From the NCBI GenBank assembly GCA_029054245.1, contig JAIDFQ010000019.1, positions 1 to 50,790 of the forward strand: 50,790 bases of DNA, written 5' to 3'. The notes beneath the pieces were generated by a model. It was not told the origin of the DNA. It did not search any database and saw only the letters and a list, made by a program, of their open reading frames with translations. Positions 34,846-50,790 of the stretch are shown here, piece by piece. The position numbers and the translations under genes are program-made. This stretch comes from Lachnospiraceae bacterium. Lineage in GTDB: Bacteria > Bacillota > Clostridia > Lachnospirales > Lachnospiraceae. The first letter of the stretch is position 1; every line of letters begins with the position of its first letter.

Positions 34846-37800
34846 ATGAAACGAATGACAGCATGGCTGGTAGCAGTTTGCCTAATCGCAACGTGCATCC
34901 TTCCGGTTCGGGCAGCAGAAACGAGCGGAACGGATATTGTTGGAACAACACAGAATAATGCAGATTCAGACAGCCAGCAGAACGAAAAAAATCAAGAAAT
35001 TAGGACCCAGGACGGGGCAAAAAGCGTTGCAAGTCCCAGCCAAAGTCCTTCTGATTGGAACCAGCCAAAGGAACCCCAGACAACATCCGAGGCAACGCCT
35101 TTGGCAACATCCGAGGCAACGCCTCTGGCAACACCTACGGCAGCGTCTGAGGCGACACCTCTGGCAACACCTACGGCAACATCCGAAGCAACGCCTCTGG
35201 CAGTACCTACGGCAACATCTGAGGCGATGCCTCTGGCAACACCTTCAGCAGCCCAGGCATCACCTACTGTGACACCTTTAGCAACGCCTTCGGCATCACC
35301 GCTGGCGACACCTTCGGCGCAGCCCTTTTCTATAGCGGATAGCAGCTGGAATGACAGGCAGGTTTCATCCGATGTGAAAGGCGGTATTGAGGTCATTTTG
35401 ATGAATGCCCTTCCAATACATGAAAGCAGCAGGATTATTTTAACAGTTACGCTGGAAAATGAGGACAGTAAGGAAGTGGTGCTTGAACGCAATGCAGAGA
35501 AGCATCTGGTTTCATTTGATGATCTTCCATCAGGCACCTATCATTTGAAAATATATGAAAATGAAAGTAACCAGACAGGATTTGGCTTTCTTGCCTACGA
35601 ACAGGATATTGAGGTAAAGGGAGATGTCAGGACGGCGGAGGTTTACACAGGTTTTGTGGAACTGGACGGCGTTGCGTATACAAAGGATGCACCACATCCA
35701 GGGGTCATGCTGATTGGAGATGTCAATCGGGATGGAAAGATTGACGAATCTGATAAGGATGCCATTATGGAAGCCATAAGCAGGGGAACAAATGGCGCTC
35801 TTACAGGAGATCCTGCGCAGAATCTCACTGATTTAAATAAAGATGGCAAAACAGATCTTGTGGATCTACAATATTATACCAACAGCAGGGCGAGAATAAA
35901 CGAGGGCGCAGATACAGCTGCCTCCCTGTATAGCAGGGTATCCCCCGGTGCAGTACAGGTAAACGTCAATACAGGCAGTACAGAAATCATAGGAGATGCT
36001 GCGGAGATTCTAAAAGACAATGGCAGTTTAGTAAGGCTTAAGAGCATAGATGGATCAGACATTTCGGAAGCTTCACCGGTGGAAATTGGCTTTAACCTGA
36101 TCAGTGGGGAGGAGCAGTCCCGACGCGTAGAACAGATAACAATTTCCATGGGAGAGAATTCTATTGAAAGTGGATTGCTTATGGTGGAGACGGAAGATCA
36201 GCCTGATCCGATGCCCTTAGAGATTAATAATGGCAGAGTAGAGGTAAACAGCCGTATGATGTCTGCCCGTGAGGAGGAGCAAAGCGGCGTATTGACAATC
36301 GACCTTGGAGGGCAGATTGCCGTTAAAAAGGTGACGCTGATCATTACAGGAATGAAATACGGTGGAAATCTGGCGGAAATCTCCAAGGTGGAATTTTTAA
36401 ATGATATGGAAAGCCGGATTCCTGCGCCTACCATGAATATACCGGACGGACTGATCTTGACGGGGGCAAATAAGTCCTTTGAGGTGACATGGAACAGCCA
36501 GGTAAATATAACCGGTTACGAGGTGAAAATCAGCTATGAAGGACAAAGTGAGACAAGGCGCGCAGCGTCCAACCATCTGGAAGTGAAATCTTTTCAAGGC
36601 GGCAGGCTGAAAAATGGTGAAATTTATGAAGTAAGCGTGCAGTCTGTAAACGGCACCTGGGTCAGCGGCTTTTGTGCACCTTCCACGGTGAGCCCGGTAA
36701 TCTCAGGCAAGCCGGATGCACCAGATAATCTGAAGGCAGTGGGAGGATACCGCCGTATTTCCTTAACATGGAAAAATATGGAGGATACGGATTCCTATAA
36801 TGTTTATTATATGGCAGAAGGAGAAGATGTCTATAGTAAGATTACGGGCGTAACACAGAATCGCCATGTGATTTCCAATCTTAAGGATGAAACCAGATAT
36901 GAAATTTATGTGACAGGTGTAAATGAATTGGGAGAAAGCAATCCATCTATTCATTCAGAGGCGCGGACGATTACTATCAAGCCGGCACAGATGCCTGCCT
37001 ATAAGCTAATAAATGAATCCAATGGGACAGGGAAGGTGAGTGCACATATCGTAAGTGTCACTCATGGAAGAGGAGCCATGGAATCCAGTCCTTTGGATAC
37101 AGACAAAAACAGTGCGCTTGGAACAGTGGATAAAGACGCGGCTTCATACTACCAGGTTCTGGACTGGGATGATGGGGCAAGTTATCCGGCTCCCACCAAG
37201 GGGCTTTTGTTTACTTTTGATGATTATTATGAGATGAATTATATTGCTTTTGCAGAAGTCGAAGATATCGGTTATTATAGCGGAGCGTATGTATATTATT
37301 ATGATCAGGAGCATCCAGACGGGGTGAGCGCGCGGAATGTATCTCTTTTGCAGAGAACGGATGCAAACGGAAGAAAATATTATATGATTAAGCTGGCGCA
37401 GCCGATTCGGACAAACAAAGTAAGGCTTGGATTTACCAGAGGAAATAATCAGAGGGATATTGTTATTTCAGAAGTGAATTTTTATTATTATGACAGCCTT
37501 GAAAGTGATATCTTTGCATTGTATGCAGACGATCTTCATACCATGCTTAAGTCAGATGTGACAGAGGCGTCTATTGATGTCCTGCAAAAACGCCTGGATA
37601 CGAAGGATGCCAAAAGCGGGGAGTATCATCCTGAAAGAGAGATGCTTCAGAGAGAGCTGGATAATGCCAGAGGTCTTTTGTCATCCGAGTTTCAAGATGT
37701 GGTGGAGATTCATGCAAAAATAACCGCGGCTAAAGACAGACATTTGGGATTTAGCGGTCTGAATGCATGGCAGCCTCTTGGCATCACCGCCTATGAGGGT

Positions 37801-40389
37801 GAGCAGATTGTGGTGTACGTAGGGCACAACCAGTTAAAGACTGGGTCGAACGCAGCGCTAAAACTAATTGCCACCCAGTATCATGCAGAGTCCGGCGCGT
37901 TTGCCACAGAGGTGGCTAGTTTGAAGGTGGGGCGGAATGAAATTACCATACCTGCCATCCAAAGCCTTGCATGTGAAGGCGGCGGAGCGCTTTATATTCA
38001 ATATACCGGCAACAATGAAAATGACCAGTATGCAGTGCGGGTAAGCGGCGGCGCAAGGGAACCGGTGCTTGATCTTTACGGTGTCACAGATTCTGCAAAG
38101 AGGATGGAACGTATCACCTCTTATGTGAAGGAGCTGGAAGAGCATGTGGCGACACTGGAAGAAAAACACAGACAGATCCACGAAGGAACTGAAGAAGGAA
38201 ATAAAGTGAACCGTAGTTACGATAAGCAGAATTGTATTCTGGGGGCAACAGATATTATGCTGGATCAGATGATGCTGTCTGTATCAGCAGAGCAGATTTT
38301 AGCAGGGCTTGGAAAGGGGACTGCTGAGGAGCGTGCACAGCGCCTAGATCAGTCGCTGCAGGCAATGGAGGAGATGATGGCGCTGTTTTATCAGCACAAG
38401 GGGCTAGGCAGCGGTTCATCTGTGCCGGCAACGGACCAGATACCGGCGCAGCATCTGAACATCCGCTATATGAGGATGTTTGCAGGGGCATTTATGTATG
38501 CCGCGGGAAATCATATCGGAATCGAATGGGGATCCGTCTCTGGCTTATCTTCGGCTGTGCCAGTACAGTCAGATGAAAATGGCAGATACATAAGCGGAAG
38601 ATATTTTGGCTGGGGAATCAGCCATGAGATTGGGCACAATATTAATCAGGGAAGCTATGCCATTGCGGAGGTGACGAACAACTACTTTGCGCAATTGACG
38701 AAGTCAGAGGACAGCAATGATACGGTACGGTTCAGTTATGATAAGGTTTATGAAAAGGTGACGTCTAATACGGTCGGAAAACCTTCTAACGTATTTACCC
38801 ATCTTGCTATGTACTGGCAGCTGCACCTCGCCTATGACAGAGGCTATAATTATAAGACCTATGACAGCTATGAGGAGCAGCAGGCAAATCTGTTCTACGC
38901 AAGAGTTGATTCTTATAGCAGAGATCCGTCCCGGGCAAGGGGGAACTTAAGGCTGGACGGCGGCAGTGACCAAAATATCATGCGCCTTGCCTGTGCGGCA
39001 GCTGAGAAGGATTTGACGGAGTTTTTCATACGCTGGGGGCTTGTGCCTGACGAATCAACAATCAGCTATGCTAGTCAGTTTGAAAAGGAAGAAAGAGCCC
39101 TGTATTATCTCACAGATGATGCAAGAGTTTATGAGATCGAGCACGGCGTTGTCGGATCCTTAAAAGGAAAAGATGTGATAAGTTCCGAAAGCACAGTAAA
39201 GGCAGACAGCAAAATACCAAATGAAGTGACGGTTTCCATTCAGAGTACAGCCAGTCCGGAGGTGGTATTGGGATATGAAATTGCCAGATATCACTATGAA
39301 GACGGCATGCCGGTGCGTCAGGTCATTGGATTTACCACGGGGACGACTTATGTGGATCATATCTCCACAATTAACAATAGAGTCATGACGTATGAAGTCA
39401 CAGCGGTGGATCAATTTGGCTATCGCTCCAACACCGCAAAGATTGGTGATGTAAGGATTTCTCATGATGGCAGTCAGGATAAGTCCATGTGGACCGTGAC
39501 AACGAATATGCTATCTGTCAGTGATGTACAAGGTGAGGCAGCAGAAGATGATCCCTGTGCGCCTGTTCCTACTCCAGGTGTCTATAAAGTGATTGACAAT
39601 GATTATAGGAGTGACTATGAAGGGCTTACGCCAGGCAGCGAGGCATTTATCCTGATTCAGATGAATCAGGTGATTGAAGTGTGCGGATTAAAATATACCG
39701 TTAAGTCGGGAACGCCAATCGGTAATTATGTAATTGAGGTGAGCACGGATGGCAGCACTTGGACCACGGTAAAGACAGGAAGTTTTGAAAATACGACCGG
39801 AAGTCAGACCGTTTATTTTGAAAATGCCCAAAAAGATCCGTGGGTATGTACTTATGATGCAGCTTACTTAAGAATAAAGGCGACGGGACAAACTGGAATG
39901 TGTGTTGCAGAACTTGATCTACTAGGACCTTCCGGGGACAGTATTTCCTTTGGCGTAAAGGCGGACAGTACACAGGCAGCAGTGGGGATTCTGAATGCAG
40001 ATTATACCTATGAGCAGGGAAAGACGATTCCCAAAGATTCTTTGATCTTTACCGGAAGTTATAAAGGCAATCCTGCCTATAATGTAGTAGTTATCTATGA
40101 TGAAAATGGAAATATTGTAGGGGGCGTAGATGAAGATAATGTGCTCAAAGCAGAACAGATTATTCTTGCCAAGGTGCCTGAAAACGGATTGCTGGGTGAA
40201 GTGAGTGACGGAATCTGGATTTACTGGATCGAGCCGGATAAAATTCCGAATGATCTGAAAGGAAAAAATGTGCGTGCACAGTTGTACCGTGTAGATCAGG
40301 CGCTGACCAATGAGGGACAAAGGCTTGTAAGCGATACGCTGCCCCTGCGCATTCCGTATACGCTGGAACATATTACAATAAGTAAATAG
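34846..40389 (+). CDS. secreted M60-family metallopeptidase with internal dockerin
   Basis: A 1847-residue secreted protein. Visible parts are: signal peptide (1-25), Thr/Ala/Pro repeats (about 79-160), a beta-rich domain (about 170-275), a type I dockerin with two calcium loops (GDVNRDGKIDESD at 291-303; TDLNKDGKTDLVDL at 328-341), a beta domain to about 520, two fibronectin III domains (about 526-712), a discoidin-like domain (about 720-885), a helical linker, the M60 gluzincin domain and a C-terminal discoidin-like domain (about 1555-1694). The zinc site is HEIGH at 1260-1264 with a likely third ligand E1275. M60 enzymes cleave O-glycosylated mucins. There is no wall anchor, so the dockerin may dock it to the next gene product. 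Confidence 0.92.
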   Translation: MKRMTAWLVAVCLIATCILPVRAAETSGTDIVGTTQNNADSDSQQNEKNQEIRTQDGAKSVASPSQSPSDWNQPKEPQTTSEATPLATSEATPLATPTAASEATPLATPTATSEATPLAVPTATSEAMPLATPSAAQASPTVTPLATPSASPLATPSAQPFSIADSSWNDRQVSSDVKGGIEVILMNALPIHESSRIILTVTLENEDSKEVVLERNAEKHLVSFDDLPSGTYHLKIYENESNQTGFGFLAYEQDIEVKGDVRTAEVYTGFVELDGVAYTKDAPHPGVMLIGDVNRDGKIDESDKDAIMEAISRGTNGALTGDPAQNLTDLNKDGKTDLVDLQYYTNSRARINEGADTAASLYSRVSPGAVQVNVNTGSTEIIGDAAEILKDNGSLVRLKSIDGSDISEASPVEIGFNLISGEEQSRRVEQITISMGENSIESGLLMVETEDQPDPMPLEINNGRVEVNSRMMSAREEEQSGVLTIDLGGQIAVKKVTLIITGMKYGGNLAEISKVEFLNDMESRIPAPTMNIPDGLILTGANKSFEVTWNSQVNITGYEVKISYEGQSETRRAASNHLEVKSFQGGRLKNGEIYEVSVQSVNGTWVSGFCAPSTVSPVISGKPDAPDNLKAVGGYRRISLTWKNMEDTDSYNVYYMAEGEDVYSKITGVTQNRHVISNLKDETRYEIYVTGVNELGESNPSIHSEARTITIKPAQMPAYKLINESNGTGKVSAHIVSVTHGRGAMESSPLDTDKNSALGTVDKDAASYYQVLDWDDGASYPAPTKGLLFTFDDYYEMNYIAFAEVEDIGYYSGAYVYYYDQEHPDGVSARNVSLLQRTDANGRKYYMIKLAQPIRTNKVRLGFTRGNNQRDIVISEVNFYYYDSLESDIFALYADDLHTMLKSDVTEASIDVLQKRLDTKDAKSGEYHPEREMLQRELDNARGLLSSEFQDVVEIHAKITAAKDRHLGFSGLNAWQPLGITAYEGEQIVVYVGHNQLKTGSNAALKLIATQYHAESGAFATEVASLKVGRNEITIPAIQSLACEGGGALYIQYTGNNENDQYAVRVSGGAREPVLDLYGVTDSAKRMERITSYVKELEEHVATLEEKHRQIHEGTEEGNKVNRSYDKQNCILGATDIMLDQMMLSVSAEQILAGLGKGTAEERAQRLDQSLQAMEEMMALFYQHKGLGSGSSVPATDQIPAQHLNIRYMRMFAGAFMYAAGNHIGIEWGSVSGLSSAVPVQSDENGRYISGRYFGWGISHEIGHNINQGSYAIAEVTNNYFAQLTKSEDSNDTVRFSYDKVYEKVTSNTVGKPSNVFTHLAMYWQLHLAYDRGYNYKTYDSYEEQQANLFYARVDSYSRDPSRARGNLRLDGGSDQNIMRLACAAAEKDLTEFFIRWGLVPDESTISYASQFEKEERALYYLTDDARVYEIEHGVVGSLKGKDVISSESTVKADSKIPNEVTVSIQSTASPEVVLGYEIARYHYEDGMPVRQVIGFTTGTTYVDHISTINNRVMTYEVTAVDQFGYRSNTAKIGDVRISHDGSQDKSMWTVTTNMLSVSDVQGEAAEDDPCAPVPTPGVYKVIDNDYRSDYEGLTPGSEAFILIQMNQVIEVCGLKYTVKSGTPIGNYVIEVSTDGSTWTTVKTGSFENTTGSQTVYFENAQKDPWVCTYDAAYLRIKATGQTGMCVAELDLLGPSGDSISFGVKADSTQAAVGILNADYTYEQGKTIPKDSLIFTGSYKGNPAYNVVVIYDENGNIVGGVDEDNVLKAEQIILAKVPENGLLGEVSDGIWIYWIEPDKIPNDLKGKNVRAQLYRVDQALTNEGQRLVSDTLPLRIPYTLEHITISK
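35080..35320 (+). repeat. imperfect ~36-bp tandem repeats in M60 gene
   Basis: Repeated coding units for S-E-A-T-P-L-A-T-P-T-A and variants, giving a Thr/Pro-rich flexible stalk. Similar unit DNA suggests unit number can change between strains. Confidence 0.85.
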
Positions 40390-42408: not shown

Positions 42409-42448
42409 ATGAAAGGAACTTACTGAGAGAACAGGAATCAAGCAGGAT
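42409..42448 (+). pseudogene. fossil XRE helix-turn-helix fragment
   Basis: Bases 42412-42447 closely match bases 43702-43736 of the HigA-like gene: AAAGGAACTTACTGAGAGA here against AAAGGAACTTGCTGAAAGG there, continuing as ACAGGAATCAAGCAGG against ACAGGAATTAATCAGG. One frame reads ERTGIKQD, the recognition-helix region of XRE proteins. Nothing else of that gene is recognisable, so this is a decayed second copy. Confidence 0.5.
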
Positions 42449-42450
42449 AA

Positions 42451-42744
42451 GAATTATCAAATCAGAGTAATCTTCCCGATGCAGAGAGTATAGCGGCAGT
42501 TTATCGTGACATTTATGAGGAAGCGGTAGATGAAAAGAAAAATGTAAAGCTGGCAATTATAGTGATTGAGATTTGTCTTCAGTATGTATCGAATCAGAAG
42601 ATTCCTTTGGATGATGATTGTGATATTTTGAAGCCTTGTATGTTTGAAGATATTTACCGGATATATACCGGAGTAAATTTAAAGACGGAAGACGGGAGAA
42701 TACCTGCGGACACATATGAATTGGCAACACCCCAAAATCCCTAA
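42451..42744 (+). pseudogene. C-terminal fragment of an unknown gene
   Basis: An open frame of about 98 codons without a credible start or ribosome site. It contains AVYRDIYEEAVDEKKNVKLA and ends in GRIPADTYELATPQNP. The only ATG (42562) would give a 60-residue product with no ribosome site. It looks like the tail of a lost gene. I do not recognise the family. Confidence 0.35.
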
Positions 42745-42870
42745 AAAAAGCACCAAACGCCCGCTTCGCAAACGGGCTTATTGAATCAAACATAGCGGAA
42801 GCCCCTGAAAATGCGGCTTTGGCATTCCCAGAGGCTTCCTTAGGGGAGGATATATCCTCCTGGGAGGATA

Positions 42871-43118
42871 AGTATGCTGGAATGAATTCCTAGAAACCTG
42901 ATAAACAGGGCATTTGCGCGTCCTCTAAAGGTGTTGGCAACACTTGGCAACAGTTTTTTTGCAGGTGTGGGAGAGGTTAAGTTTTTGATATGTTGAGGAT
43001 TAAAAAACTGAATATGGAATAGCGTACCGGAGTGGATGAAGTGAATAGGAATAGCAATTCTTTGGTGGTATGTGATGGGATATCCCATGTGCTGGTGGTA
43101 GTGCATGGGGTATTTTTA
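42871..43118. repeat. direct repeat, copy A (~250 bp)
   Basis: An imperfect copy of 47748-47995 in the same orientation. Both start at AGTATGCTGGA, share GAATAGCGTAyCGGAGTG (43017-43034 and 47892-47909), and end near GTGCATGGrGTAT. Spacing between matching points stays about 4876 bp, so few indels separate them, and most differences are single bases. Both copies read similarly in one frame (FARPLKVL against FARPLMVL), interrupted by stops in copy A. The repeats bracket the HigBA-like pair and the 1232-residue gene. No gene is predicted inside. Upstream, 42745-42870 contains several short hairpins, including the palindrome at 42845-42860. Confidence 0.8.
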
Positions 43119-43213
43119 ATAAGGCGTAAAGATATAACTAGCGTGAGGATACTTTGTTGACAATATGGCATATTTGCCATATGCTAAATGTAGAAAATAA
43201 ATTGGAGATTACA

Positions 43214-43574
43214 ATGGATAAATTTGAAGTGGAATTTTATACTAAAGATAACAGTGAAAAACCGGCTAAAGATTTTATCCTTGGTCTGGATGTTAAAATG
43301 CGAGCAAAAGTATTGGGGATAATTAATGTACTGGAGGAAAAAGGAAACCAGTTGCGAGAGCCATACAGTAAGCATTTAGATGACGGAATATTTGAAATTC
43401 GTGGAAAAGTGGGGACAGATATAACAAGGGTTCTTTATTTTTTCTATTATGGGAAAAAGATTGTAATAACAAATGGATTTATCTAAGAAAACACAGGAAA
43501 CGCCAAAGCGGGAAATAAAGTTGGAAAAGTCATATCGTAAAGATTATTTGGAAAGGGTGAAAAATAATGAGTGA
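43214..43574 (+). pseudogene. higB: HigB/RelE-type toxin gene with frameshift
   Basis: The first 90 codons encode a phage-derived Gp49-like/HigB mRNA-cleaving toxin (MDKFEVEFYTKDNSEKPAKD, GIFEIRGKVG, VLYFFYYGKKIVITNGFI). They end at TAA 43484-43486. Skipping one base (T 43484) opens a frame reading KKTQETPKREIKLEKSYR and on to 43574, exactly the expected C-terminus, overlapping the antitoxin start by 8 bp as in intact operons. The repaired protein would be 119 residues. So a 1-bp insertion, or a sequencing error, truncates it by 29 residues. The ATG at 43214 has GGAG upstream. Confidence 0.8.
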
Positions 43575-43860
43575 ATTTCAGGAATTTCTAAATGAACAAT
43601 TTCAGGATGATGAGTTTAGAAAAGAGTGGGAAGATATTCAGCCGGAAATGGATGTGATCCGGGCAATGGTAGATGCAAGGATATCACAAAATCTTACTCA
43701 AAAGGAACTTGCTGAAAGGACAGGAATTAATCAGGCAGATATAAGCAAGCTGGAAAACGGAACAAGGAATCCATCGCTCAAGTTATTAAAGCGTTTGGCG
43801 GATGGAATGGGGATGACCTTAAAATTGGAATTCATTCCTAAAAATTCAGTGAAGAATTAA
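43567..43860 (+). CDS. higA: HigA-like XRE antitoxin
   Basis: A 97-residue protein with a central helix-turn-helix of the XRE/Cro type: LTQKELAERTGINQADISKL (about 43-62), then ENGTRNPSLKLLKRLADGMG. It should neutralise the upstream HigB-like toxin and repress the pair. GAAAGGGTG precedes the ATG. With the toxin apparently truncated, it may persist as an orphan regulator. A fossil copy of its helix-turn-helix lies at 42409-42448. Confidence 0.88.
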   Translation: MSEFQEFLNEQFQDDEFRKEWEDIQPEMDVIRAMVDARISQNLTQKELAERTGINQADISKLENGTRNPSLKLLKRLADGMGMTLKLEFIPKNSVKN

Positions 43861-43934
43861 GCATGTATAGCTATACACGAAGGTGTTTCATGCGGTATTT
43901 ATTAAGCGGTAAAATATAAAAAGGATGGAAAGAT

Positions 43935-46900
43935 ATGTTACTTCACAGACATAGTATGGAAATTGAAAATCAGAAAATGCAAATAATCCGTTTGTTAGAA
44001 ATGGCTAATATGGGAAATTATCATGTTTCCTGCGAAGCCGACTGTATTGGAGAAAGAGATATTATATTTGAACATAGTGGGGTGGCATGTAAGATGCTTG
44101 CGTTATTAAAAAGCTCCATATCTCCAGAAAACGTTTATCAAATGGAATATTTGGATGAGGCATACTGCAAGTTTAAACAAGAGACGCCTGTATTATTTTC
44201 AAAACAGGAATTATTTGATGAGGGATGGCTGATTGCATGCGGAGAAGAATGGCTCTTTAATATTTCGTACCAACATTTCTATGAAAGAATAGAACGTTTG
44301 TCATCTGAAAAAGAAACCCAAATCCTTTCTTTTTTGAAAGAATTGTCAAAGATTCCTTATCGCTCCCAGATATGGTTACGTGTATCAGATCAGATAGTAT
44401 GTGAAGAATTGGAAGGTGTTTTAGCAATCATAGATGGTATGGTTTACTTAGATCCACATGGGAAATATTGGTTACAGTACGGAAGTGCTATCTTTGGCAA
44501 ATGGTGGGATGAAATTATTGAAACGGGAATTCCAGAAACGGTTGAAATGTACCAGCAGATAGAACATTGGTTTTCATGTTGGGAGTTTTTTCAACGATGT
44601 TGGGAACCAGATTGTTATTGCGAACATGTCGAAGAATTATTTGAGATATGCTTAAAAAAACTGGAGGTAGAATTAGAAAATACTTCTTGGGAATTGGTGG
44701 AGAAAATTTTCAGAAGAAGATTATATTTAGAACATAATTTAGAAGGAAATAGGCAATATACAGATTTTTTGCAGGATTATCCGGAAACCTTGATTGCGCG
44801 CATATTGTATGTGAATGAAAATATAAATTATAACCTTTCAGAACCATTGGAAAGGTTAAAACGGCTTTATTATCTGTGTCTACATCAATATAAGAATGTG
44901 AATAAAGAGTATCAAATTCGATTTCTTAAATGTATGCAAAATCCATGGTTATACGTAAATTTTTCCACATTTGCCGCTAAAATAGAAAATGTTGAATTCC
45001 TTATAGATTGCCTTGGGTGTCCAAAACTGTACGTGGTTGCGGCAGATGTTATATGGGAAATGAACTATGACATAATGACAAAAATTCCATCTATTGGGGA
45101 AAAAATTCTGGAAGAATTAAACCAGAATATGTTCGAAATAATAGATTATGGATTGGGAGGAGAAAATCAGGAAGAATGGCTTTCAGTAGTGAAAGACATA
45201 ATCTGGTATTTAAATGAGAAAAGTAATTGGTATTGTAAAAATACGTATATGAGTAAAACCGGTATTCAAAAATATATGCAGCTCATCCATAACGATTACA
45301 TTAAATGGTATGAAAAAAATATTTCACATAAAAATTTGTTACATGATAAAGTTTTAGAATATTTTTATGCTGAATTTGAAAATAGTAGTGAAAGAGATAT
45401 AGTTAAATCATTTGCGCGATATACTATTTTACTAGGGAGGCAATGCAAAGAAGAAAGAAACTGGCAGCTTTTTGAAACATTACTAAAATTTTTAGAACGG
45501 GTACAGACAGAAGATACGCTTATTTCTGTACTTCCATGGTCTTTTTGGCAAGAGAAAATCTGGATCTTTATGATGAAGGGAGTGGCTGAAAACCCAAAAG
45601 AAACAACTAGATTTTTAAAGTTGTTGAAGCCAGAATTTTATAGAGAACATGTGGATATGCAAAAAAAAGAAAACTCTGCTTTGTCAAGAATTGGTATGGC
45701 TGCTATGATTCAGATTTACCTAATGACAATACTTCTTATGGAAGGGAGAGTAGAAACAGGGGAAAAAAACAGAAGCGAGATAGAAAAAGCTTTTGTGGAA
45801 TGTATCTTAGGGGTTCAGATAGAACAATGTGATTTGTTGGATCCCGAATTCGTTCGTATTTTAGAGGCAGAAGTTGTGATACATAGGTGTATGGAGATCA
45901 TACCTATGTTAAATGTCCAAAATCAAACAACGATTATGAACGAAATGGTTAAAAAGTCGCCAGAAAAGTTGATATTTTTGTTACGGTATGTTCAGAATCC
46001 TAATATTCGTCAAAAATGGATTCAAATATTAGTGCAACGAATAGAGGAAGATTTTTCAGAGAACCTCTTTTATATTCCTACCTATATGCAGATAATTGAC
46101 TATCTAATGGAAATATGTTTTCAGGGTGAGGATAAAGAACAGAAATTGGTACTGAAAGCCGATGAGTTATTGAAACAGTTCCAGCAGAAAATAGAAAAGA
46201 AAGGGTTACGGATAGAAAAACAATATGCATCTTGGATTCAGTCTGCAAAATTTCGGCTGAAGTTGTTGATGGGAGAGGAGCAGGATATTTTATCTGATGA
46301 GAAGAATCCTTCATCAATATTTTATAAAGCACTTATATATCTTAATAAGGATGATTTGGAAAGCCTAAAGAATGCAGAACAATTATATTATACTTGTATC
46401 AGCCATAAGAAAACAAATGCAAACAGTGCGTCATATATTAACTATTTTGTGGCATGCGTTAGAATTTGTACTCATACAGATATTTCAGAAGCGGAAAAGA
46501 GTAAATACATACAAAAAGCAGAAAATTTGGCAAAAGAAATACGTAATAGAGATGTTCTATTGATTCAGGATCAAAAAGTTTTGTTTATAAATGAAATGCA
46601 TTTATATATTATGTTGAATGACCACTTGAAATTTTGGATATCTGCTTCAAGGCTCCCAGCGGAACTGAAATATGATTTTTCATGTGCAAAGTTTGTTATA
46701 CAGATGCTTATTTCAGAAAATAAATCTAAAAGGGCAGAGGAATATATTAATGAACTTATTTTGCGTTACGGAGAAACGAATGAAATACTACAGCTTCAAC
46801 GAGAATTAGAAGAGGCGGTTGTTTCTTTGGAACGAAATACACCAACAGCACGATATAATGAGTTACCAGAGATTGAAAAATATAGATACGCTTTGAATTG

Positions 46901-47633
46901 TCTTAAAAATCTATCAGAGATGGAAAGTGCGCTCGTGAGATTGAATAAGGATAATTTGGAAAATCCGGCAGAGGCAAATTTATTGGAATTTGTGTTAAAT
47001 GCAGTACAGCAGATGGAGCAATATAGTGACTATCTGATATGTAATTCAGAAACGCGAAATGAAGACACTTATAATAAATTTGTGCAGATTTTGTTCAATC
47101 AACGCGGTAAGGATATTTGGGATTATTATCTTAAGGATCAGACTTTTGAAGGCACAGCAAATGATAAATTGAAGAGTGGTTTTCAGAGCGTTGGGAGGAT
47201 AGATTTATTGATATGTCATAAGAATGATTCGATAGGTATTATAGAGACAATAAAGTTAAAAAATGCAGACTATAAAAATATACAGAAACATATACGGAAA
47301 ATTTTTGGGTATAATTCTGCAAATGTTCCAACAGCGTTTTTTCTAATTTTGGCGGACATGTCAAAGCCGGGAAAGTTCTGGGAAAAATATGAGAATATTA
47401 TTTTACCCAGAATGATTGAAGAGACCAAAGGCAATGATTGGCATATTACAGAAAAAAAAACTCAGAGAGATATTGAACTGATTAAACATAGCATAGTACG
47501 TAAGCCAATGTATCTATGCATGACATGTCATGCTTGCGACAGTACGAATCAAACTCTGCATTTATACCATATAATGGTAGATATTCAAAAAGCTGCGGCT
47601 AAAAAAGAAGCTGTTGATGCACGAAAAAGTTAA
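43935..47633 (+). CDS. giant helical protein with nuclease-like C-terminus
   Basis: A 1232-residue protein that I cannot assign to a named family. Residues 1 to about 1030 are almost entirely helical and rich in Glu, Lys, Tyr and Trp, with TPR/HEAT-like stretches (for example around 780-1000), and no signal peptide or clear membrane helix. From about 1040 the character changes. DTYNKFVQILFNQRGKDIWD, then GRIDLLI with D1090, a strand IIETIKL with E1104 and K1107, and KHIRKIFGYN resemble PD-(D/E)XK-type nuclease domains, although the spacing is ExxK rather than ExK. AAGGATGG precedes the ATG, 74 bp after higA. It lies between two direct repeats. A defence or conflict role is inference. Confidence 0.75.
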   Translation: MLLHRHSMEIENQKMQIIRLLEMANMGNYHVSCEADCIGERDIIFEHSGVACKMLALLKSSISPENVYQMEYLDEAYCKFKQETPVLFSKQELFDEGWLIACGEEWLFNISYQHFYERIERLSSEKETQILSFLKELSKIPYRSQIWLRVSDQIVCEELEGVLAIIDGMVYLDPHGKYWLQYGSAIFGKWWDEIIETGIPETVEMYQQIEHWFSCWEFFQRCWEPDCYCEHVEELFEICLKKLEVELENTSWELVEKIFRRRLYLEHNLEGNRQYTDFLQDYPETLIARILYVNENINYNLSEPLERLKRLYYLCLHQYKNVNKEYQIRFLKCMQNPWLYVNFSTFAAKIENVEFLIDCLGCPKLYVVAADVIWEMNYDIMTKIPSIGEKILEELNQNMFEIIDYGLGGENQEEWLSVVKDIIWYLNEKSNWYCKNTYMSKTGIQKYMQLIHNDYIKWYEKNISHKNLLHDKVLEYFYAEFENSSERDIVKSFARYTILLGRQCKEERNWQLFETLLKFLERVQTEDTLISVLPWSFWQEKIWIFMMKGVAENPKETTRFLKLLKPEFYREHVDMQKKENSALSRIGMAAMIQIYLMTILLMEGRVETGEKNRSEIEKAFVECILGVQIEQCDLLDPEFVRILEAEVVIHRCMEIIPMLNVQNQTTIMNEMVKKSPEKLIFLLRYVQNPNIRQKWIQILVQRIEEDFSENLFYIPTYMQIIDYLMEICFQGEDKEQKLVLKADELLKQFQQKIEKKGLRIEKQYASWIQSAKFRLKLLMGEEQDILSDEKNPSSIFYKALIYLNKDDLESLKNAEQLYYTCISHKKTNANSASYINYFVACVRICTHTDISEAEKSKYIQKAENLAKEIRNRDVLLIQDQKVLFINEMHLYIMLNDHLKFWISASRLPAELKYDFSCAKFVIQMLISENKSKRAEEYINELILRYGETNEILQLQRELEEAVVSLERNTPTARYNELPEIEKYRYALNCLKNLSEMESALVRLNKDNLENPAEANLLEFVLNAVQQMEQYSDYLICNSETRNEDTYNKFVQILFNQRGKDIWDYYLKDQTFEGTANDKLKSGFQSVGRIDLLICHKNDSIGIIETIKLKNADYKNIQKHIRKIFGYNSANVPTAFFLILADMSKPGKFWEKYENIILPRMIEETKGNDWHITEKKTQRDIELIKHSIVRKPMYLCMTCHACDSTNQTLHLYHIMVDIQKAAAKKEAVDARKS

Positions 47634-47747
47634 TTAATTTGTATTAGGGTGAAGCATGCAAGGTATGATTCTAATAATTCCGATAAAATGTGCATTTCCT
47701 TAACAAGTAAATCTAAGCAATTAGAGAAGGTAGAGATATATTATCAG
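47634..47747. other. gap between giant gene and repeat B
   Basis: A short reading frame at 47649-47840 runs from here into repeat B, but it has only a weak start context and its tail is repeat sequence, so I do not call it a gene. The whole 47634-48123 gap holds this, repeat B and a possible operator for the following antitoxin relic. Confidence 0.4.
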
Positions 47748-47995
47748 AGTATGCTGGACAGAAGTCTGAGAAACCCGATAAACTGGATATTTGCACGTCC
47801 TTTAATGGTGTTGGAAACATTTAGCAATAGTTTTTTGTAGATGTGTAAAAGGTTAGGTTTTTGCTTGGCTGAGGATTAAAAATCGAATATAGAATAGCGT
47901 ATCGGAGTGAATGAAGTGGGTAGGAACAGCAATTCTCTGGCGGTATGTGATGAGATATCTCATGTGCTGATGGTGGTGCATGGAGTATCTTTATG
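47748..47995. repeat. direct repeat, copy B (~250 bp)
   Basis: The partner of 42871-43118 in the same orientation, beginning AGTATGCTGGACAGAAG and ending at GTGCATGGAGTATC. Divergence from copy A is spread over the whole length, so the duplication is not recent. Immediately after it come the antitoxin relic and the AAA ATPase gene. Confidence 0.8.
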
Positions 47996-48096: not shown

Positions 48097-48123
48097 TCAT
48101 TACAGACAAAAAGAAGAGTGTGT

Positions 48124-48366
48124 ATGTATATTGATTTAAAGAATCTGGTGTCTATTTCAGAAGCAAACCCCAATTTTTCAGAGATAGCAAGAATGGTGGA
48201 TGAGAATGGTGCTGCTGTGATACTAAAGAATAATTCACCCTGATATGTTTTGATTGGTTACAGCAAGTTGCATGAAGATTCGGACGCAGATAATGAAGCA
48301 TTGGAAGTTGTTGCAACTCGCATATTGCAAAAGAATAAGAAGGTGTTTGAAGAATTAGCAAAATGA
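48124..48366 (+). pseudogene. Phd/YefM-like antitoxin gene with in-frame stop
   Basis: A frame of 80 codons. It starts MYIDLKNLVSISEANPNFSE, the N-terminus of Phd/RelB-type antitoxins of Firmicutes, and continues IARMVDENGAAVILKNNSP. TGA follows at codon 40 (48241-48243). The same frame then carries on with YVLIGYSKLHED and VVATRILQKNKKVFEELAK. The family usually has Arg or Lys at the interrupted position, so one CGA-to-TGA change explains it. No toxin gene follows; the 259-bp gap to the ATPase gene shows only a 22-codon frame. Confidence 0.7.
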
Positions 48367-50317: not shown

Positions 50318-50790
50318 TAATTAAGAGAAGTACCTGTAAATTAAATGCTCTTACAGATTATTGAATTAACAAGGTTTGGAGTAGAGTTCTGGACGGAACT
50401 GGACAAAATCAAAAATCTATATGGAATATATTGCAGCTGGAACTGGCCGGAGTCTGCTTCTTTATTATGAAGATAAAAGCCAGAAATATCAAGAGGTATA
50501 GTAATAATGTGATGGAAAGGTGATGTTAGACAGGGGGATTTTTAACAGTATTGATGCTGCTAATGTAGCATCGAGACACCATTAGAAAGCAGTATAACAG
50601 CGGCAAACTGCTTTGTATATTAAATTGAATAGAGATAAGCCAAAGGGCATTTCATCTTGTGCTGGATGGATGTCCTTTTTCATGCAGATTTTTAGGAGGA
50701 AGGGAACGCATGGAACGTAAGCGTCAAATATTCCTGCGGATTTCCTGATCCTCAAGTTTCCCCTATAATTGTAGTGGATAGATATTTAGA
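50318..50790. other. non-coding or relic tail of window
   Basis: Only short frames are seen here; for example 26 codons from MEYIAAGTGRSLLLYYEDKS, without a clear ribosome site. A GGAGG-preceded ATG at 50710 yields just 12 codons. I see no tRNA, no transposase and no complete gene. The stretch contains one hairpin, listed separately. Confidence 0.4.
50642..50680 (+). terminator. possible terminator
   Basis: AAAGGGCAT (50642-50650) pairs with ATGTCCTTT (50670-50678) using one wobble, followed by T residues. It may end the ATPase transcript. Confidence 0.4.

Follow-up and report, generated by a model that had tools for sequence, protein, structure and literature searches.

The window, that is the whole stretch of 50,790 nucleotides analysed here, corresponds to the entire contig C11 of its genome. 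Two direct repeats of about 250 bp were verified on the same strand and in the same orientation, the first at 42871-43118 (LE1) and the second at 47748-47993 (LE2). They agree in 205 of 248 aligned columns (82.7% identity) with two gap columns, and the longest identical run between them is 13 bp. In local alignment the two copies scored 359, whereas 200 shuffles of one copy reached at most 105. The first-pass annotation had described a colinear, nearly indel-free pair bracketing higBA and a gene of 1232 residues, and this pair is real; its boundaries for the first copy hold, while the second copy is 2 bases shorter than given, ending at 47993 and not at 47995. No open reading frame of at least 90 aa covers either repeat in the list made for the window. 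Family searches of the three enclosed proteins also bore out that no transposase or integrase family is found among them.

The first two enclosed genes encode a HigB-like toxin (Gp49/DUF891; 43154-43486, plus strand; Pfam Gp49 3.4e-15) and a HigA-like antitoxin (43567-43860, plus strand; Pfam HTH_3 4.8e-15). With a toxin and an antitoxin family in one apparent operon, the pair has the predicted make-up of a type II toxin-antitoxin (TA) module. A promoter-like site is located outside the repeat at 43157-43185 on the plus strand (TTGACA at 43157, spacer 17, TATGCT); its spacer is occupied by an inverted repeat of 20 bp (43163-43182). Such sites numbered 3 in the region upstream of higBA, not above the shuffle mean of 2.3. 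Since this site overlies the listed TTG start, higB probably begins at ATG 43214. The inverted repeat recurs ahead of HigBA in stretch L154 and in genome G010. The third gene (43935-47633, plus strand) encodes the 1232-aa protein, for which no Pfam, PADLOC or NCBIfam family, no relative in a wider collection of genome contigs and no solved-structure match was found. Its residues 1042-1154 show a weak likeness to a protein of G015 (34%, 2.2e-7), the one weak match in the genus.

Ahead of LE1 lies the sequence GGGAGGATAAGTAT (42862-42875, plus strand), a core and putative crossover site. It is preceded at 42720-42860 (plus strand) by the sequence that stands 3' of an integrase gene in relatives, here apparently what is left of a preceding element's right end (RE): it holds one arm motif TTGGCAACA (42721), a hairpin (42797-42839; 1 found, 0.7 in shuffles) and the partial core TTAGGGGAGGATA, and the integrase gene is missing. 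LE1 is followed by HigBA and the giant gene, and LE2 by a phd antitoxin pseudogene (48118-48366, plus strand; 85.5% aa identity to the Phd of contig C46 of the same genome, one in-frame stop), a 563-aa gene and a 34-bp match (50683-50716, plus strand; 94%) to the region where the element gene DUF5720 begins in C46. No doc match was detected 3' of the pseudogene within the window, and a search of the other 36 genomes of the genus at E 1e-10 gave nothing for the 563-aa gene. A stretch of 35 bp to the left of LE1 (42412-42446) is 86% identical to part of higA (43701-43735), in line with a further TA remnant in the preceding unit. A 16-bp palindrome, GGAGGATATATCCTCC, is formed at 42845-42860 by a doubled core; doubled or tripled cores were also seen in G008, G029, G034, G010, G028 and G216.

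The first-pass annotation had proposed either a cassette exchanged by recombination between the repeats or a mobile unit moved in trans, for both of which copies elsewhere, other cargo behind them and empty sites in relatives would be expected. The search for the repeat was positive. A third copy occurs in the same genome on C46 and is nearer to LE1 (93%) than LE2 is (83%). Within the genus, 8 of 37 genomes contain matches, the window's own among them (all genomes searched consist of 20 or more contigs), and so does one genome of another genus, G216; the matches in G028 extend over 33-37 bp only. Among 12 stretches of named genomes holding a 19-mer of core and repeat start, 11 contain the repeat directly after the core, and by record these belong to Lachnospiraceae (nine), Clostridia (one) and Bacillota (one); contig ends truncate two of the 11, and three are genomes already counted. 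A gene-order search, in which 2 candidates per genome were scored, gave 2 of 295 genomes (own genome included), which is a lower bound. The window copies are not a stand-alone pair, as further matches exist in the same genome and in relatives. No match to the repeat was obtained in phage and plasmid collections at E 1e-5, and an origin from a phage or plasmid was rejected on this basis.

A hairpin and the core GGGAGGATAAGTAT precede the repeat in most of the copies whose left flank can be read; the core stands immediately ahead of LE1 and of the copies in G008, G006, G032, G014 (G014a) and G015 (G015a and G015b). The same hairpin and core also close a segment with a tyrosine integrase (Phage_integrase 2.1e-21), after which a conserved chromosomal leader follows and not the repeat. 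Relatives of this integrase (at least 87% identity) occur in 11 genomes, among them that of the query; G027 and G031 have fragments. The chromosomal gene after the leader encodes a SEC-C motif (3.6e-9), and the gene after it matches C_GCAxxG_C_C (3e-36).

The SEC-C gene was found once each in 34 of the 37 genus genomes, and at 31 of these 34 loci the core (at most 1 mismatch) lies 190 to 411 bp before it. Integrase sequence is present upstream of the core at 14 loci. At 8 further loci the family hairpin and core were found, with the integrase absent from the DNA fetched; of the remaining three, G005 is without core and two contigs end too soon. Nine loci in sister species (G003, G007, G012, G013, G016, G017, G024, G026 and G033) have the core and neither integrase nor left end over the 562-8405 bp read, and the repeat is absent from these nine genomes as a whole at E 0.001; the expected empty sites thus exist. 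In five of them the hairpin before the core has a family-like loop, which G007, G013, G016 and G026 lack by the same test, so that an earlier visit of an element is possible at these five sites; further weak matches were obtained in G012, G013 and G017. The comparison of loci indicates that the core is the likely attachment site of the family, the integrase side its right end and the repeat its left end (LE). Contig C78 of the window's own genome carries a full-length family integrase (433 aa, Phage_integrase 1e-21), together with the integrase end and the chromosomal gene. C11, C46 and C78 are unlinked in the assembly; they may form one array. The suggestion of a unit moved in trans came close, as the repeat appears to be the end of an integrase-driven element and that integrase is encoded in the same genome.

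One relative encodes conjugation genes. In G015, about 42 kb run from core, LE and a ParM-like gene to integrase, hairpin, core and chromosome, with the core at both ends. Relaxase (1.3e-37), coupling protein (T4SS-DNA_transf 4.6e-52), VirB4-like protein (P-loop_TraG 8e-15) and integrase (Phage_integrase 2.5e-20) lie between these sites, the gene set that defines an ICE; this is the one element examined in this way. It is preceded by a smaller unit in the same orientation. A 1994-aa protein of the 42-kb element (L162 4278-10262) matches Pfam NACHT (3.4e-6) within the first 1074 residues (scanned as L022 12778-15999).

Shorter arrangements were found at other loci. The order in G008 is integrase, hairpin, core, LE, ParDE, an ApeA-like HEPN protein, a right-end piece, core and chromosome. 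In G006, core, LE, Phd, truncated Doc, hairpin, core and chromosome follow each other, with 928 bp from core to core. L156 and L159 hold core-closed LE-ParDE units before the same chromosomal gene or its neighbourhood. In G216, an RE arm-LE fusion is followed by ParDE, a transposase gene (DUF772 8e-17), an RE arm, a doubled core and the same chromosomal gene; by eye, the right-end arm is fused to the LE at a shared 19-bp arm motif (L188 7689-7870). In G010, complete HigB and HigA genes (92.7 and 92.8% aa identity) with the same inverted repeat stand directly before hairpin and core (L116 5475-6280, minus strand), and no LE is detectable at this chromosomal site.

The arm-type sites of integrases typically appear as pairs of direct repeats within the two ends of an element. 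The motif TTGGCAACACTTGGCAACA was found exactly in both right and left ends. Paired TTGGCAACA (at most 1 mismatch) is present in 11 of 11 right ends and in 7 of 9 left ends examined, including LE1 (42934 and 42944), while LE2 and the G006 left end retain one degenerate copy; at the same tolerance, 15 single nonamers occur on one strand of the 50.8-kb window. CCTGATAAACA is exact in all 11 right ends and is found with at most 1 mismatch in 3 of the 9 left ends. The LE probably carries putative arm-binding sites of the integrase.

Taken together, the repeat is very probably the left terminus, namely the arm region beside the core, of a tyrosine-integrase ICE family and of shrunken, CIME-like derivatives, which stack at the core GGGAGGATAAGTAT, and the window would hold such an array in decay. 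From left to right this begins with the RE remnant and the core, continues with LE1, HigBA and the giant gene, and ends with LE2, the broken phd, the 563-aa gene and the match to the DUF5720 start. Core, sites without element, shared arm motifs, the conjugation genes of one relative, the position of the TA genes and the reshuffling described below were all seen by comparing sequences; we infer that the integrase binds, that elements excise and are mobilised by the integrase of this genome, and that the TA genes act by addiction. The interval between the repeats is no ICE itself, as it encodes HigB, HigA and the family-less protein only and holds no integrase or conjugation genes of its own. 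Like a CIME, 42871-47747 is free of integration and transfer genes; a CIME keeps both attL and attR, and here a core is found at 42862-42875 and none before LE2, in contrast to G008 and G006, where cores stand on both sides of the unit. With no transposase family in the three enclosed proteins, a composite or IS-bounded transposon is not indicated either. Judged by its sequence, the window holds a set of decayed, accreted element ends and not one transposon.

Eighteen LE copies have readable downstream DNA, and 12 of them have as first cargo a type II TA module, which begins 36 to 193 bp after the LE as aligned and shares its strand. HigBA (Gp49, HTH_3) stands behind LE1 and in L154, and Phd with or without Doc (PhdYeFM_antitox 1.5e-7; DOC_P1 1.5e-18) behind LE2 (broken) and in C46, G006 (Doc truncated) and L152. 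ParDE (ParE_toxin 3.5e-11) was found in G008, L155, L156, L159, L161 and G216; the ParD-like antitoxin matches no Pfam family and owes its name to its position ahead of ParE. The other six copies are followed by IetAS (G014b; PADLOC IetA 8.1e-131, IetS 1.6e-297), an actin-like ParM (G014a, G015b and, decayed, G032), a flavodoxin-like gene (G015a) and an FMN-reductase-like gene (G027). This count includes partial copies: G014b begins a contig and retains the 3' part of the LE, G032 has the first 207 bases and G027 about the last 70, and the copy in G216 starts at the arm motif. It does not include L153 and L158, whose contigs stop within the LE, L160, which has the 19-mer but no match to the LE, or G031, where the LE is truncated and TA remnants begin about 1.9 kb in. 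Short matches of 33-38 bp, two of them in G028 and others on contig C12 of G006, were likewise omitted; L150, L151 and L157 repeat G014a, G008 and G015 and were counted once.

Near-identical copies with different cargo were found, as had been anticipated: LE1, with HigBA, is 99% identical to the LE of L152, with Phd-Doc, but 85% identical to that of L154, which precedes the same HigBA (92.7 and 94.8% aa identity). LE and cargo are therefore not inherited together, and ends and cargo reshuffle. The gene after HigBA encodes 1232 aa in the window and 544 aa in L154, with no match between the two, and a bSEFIR protein is encoded further on in L154.

The regular place of the TA genes, which in 12 of 18 copies start on the same strand 36-193 bp past the LE, together with a conserved hairpin predicted at the 3' edge of the LE (about 43078-43115 in LE1), could suggest that the repeat is a common promoter or RNA leader of TA operons that was copied along with them. 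This is very unlikely, since the same LE precedes three unrelated TA families and non-TA genes, HigBA occurs without it in G010, and the likeness of LE1 follows the Phd-Doc copy more closely than the HigBA copy. Moreover, the promoter-like site and inverted repeat of higBA lie outside the LE (although promoter-like sites are no commoner there than in shuffles), and the arm motifs recur at the integrase end. Covariation is weak, with double changes in 4 of 70 predicted pairs. Rfam gave no match at gathering score in the window, the four matches at a relaxed threshold lying far below their gathering scores, and an RNA reading of the repeat was rejected on these results.

In one of the two readings offered in the first-pass annotation, the block could be a single cassette with a repeat at each end, exchanged through homologous recombination of these repeats. 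The block is indeed bracketed by direct repeats, and a near-identical LE with other cargo exists, but both copies appear to be left ends, each of its own element and each with its own TA genes, those behind LE2 being the broken phd. The HigBA unit lacks a closing core or right end within the window, and the LE-TA units of G008, G006, L156 and L159 are closed by a core and not by a second LE. At 82.7% identity with no identical run above 13 bp, recombination between the two window copies would be unlikely today, and the reading as a whole is scarcely tenable; past recombination by way of the LE would fit the reshuffling of cargo. The first-pass interpretation is thus partly supported. Least probable is a MITE-like or IS-derived insertion scattered on its own: dispersed non-coding copies with a sharp left edge and the core-free junctions of LE2 and C46 would suit it, but the integrase core stands ahead of most copies with a readable left flank, and the integrase end has the same arm motifs.

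These two junctions have the same edge, as LE2 and the C46 copy both begin precisely at AGTATGCTGG, which lies inside the core of other copies, and the rest of the core is absent. Insertion by the integrase at secondary sites would explain the common edge. The C46 copy interrupts a DUF6017 gene whose 3' part was not found elsewhere in the genome, and a degenerate core before LE2 was rejected, because that stretch was no better than shuffles in any of five comparisons with core regions; both results make such insertion a tentative reading.

For the ICE family with decaying, stacked derivatives, the following course is proposed. An element would arrive by conjugation, as suggested by the genes of one relative, and its integrase would recombine core with core in the leader of the conserved chromosomal gene, using the arm sites in LE and RE. 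Later arrivals would enter the same core and stack head-to-tail, giving the order right end, core, left end and cargo, and resident elements would decay to LE-cargo-RE units. By analogy, the TA modules inside the LE would penalise loss and so probably stabilise the element by addiction. A more doubtful proposal, which we put forward only tentatively, is that interchangeable addiction cassettes could dock at the LE. One TA pair would replace another at the 3' edge of the LE, and derivatives as small as ~1 kb (core-LE-TA-hairpin-core; G006 is an example) might thereby stabilise themselves, persist at the site and be mobilised by whichever integrase of the family is present; TA and defence arrays would build up at a single locus.

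Tn916-type tyrosine-recombinase elements have direct repeats inside both ends, which are possible arm-type integrase sites. Direct repeats inside both ends, as candidate arm-type sites, are likewise found in this family, which differs from these elements in its one specific core before one gene (31 of 34 loci). Accretion and cis-mobilizable elements are already known, and this family is a further case; no description of it was found in the literature searched (open-licence PMC papers). As outlined in the parts of the reports on streptococcal ICEs, IMEs and CIMEs that bear on this point, decayed elements keep their att ends, elements stack head-to-tail at one target through a common att site, and CIMEs carry cargo (PMC5704250, PMC7563491). 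The arrangements in G015, G008, G006, L156, L159, G216 and G010 fit such tandem accretion and CIME-like decay at one target. In contrast to the streptococcal elements as outlined there, the hosts of this family are mostly Lachnospiraceae among the named records, the target is the leader before a gene and not the 3' end of a gene, and TA genes lie just inside the left end. TA genes on an ICE are also found in SXT, for which the relevant part of the report proposes a role in maintenance (PMC2654960). Unlike what is given there, three TA families alternate here at one position beside the element end, and their role is assigned by analogy.

With this reading, an odd pair of repeats becomes a readable hot spot, with one core before one gene at which conjugative elements stack in a gut lineage. 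It offers element-free sites for comparison, and its cargo comprises TA and anti-phage genes (ApeA-like, IetAS, bSEFIR). The fixed place of alternating TA families inside the left end makes it a testable case for TA modules that keep shrunken elements in place. Several blocks of DUF5720, DUF6017 and actin-like genes, from these or related elements, were seen in G000 on C58, C50, C20 and C46. In several elements (L103, L101 and L100), genes for a large surface-like and a small membrane-like protein stand alongside the integrase end, as judged by eye. In the window itself, left of the array, an 1847-aa protein is encoded at 34846-40389 with Peptidase M60, fn3 and F5/8 type C domains, and a dockerin just below the cut-off.
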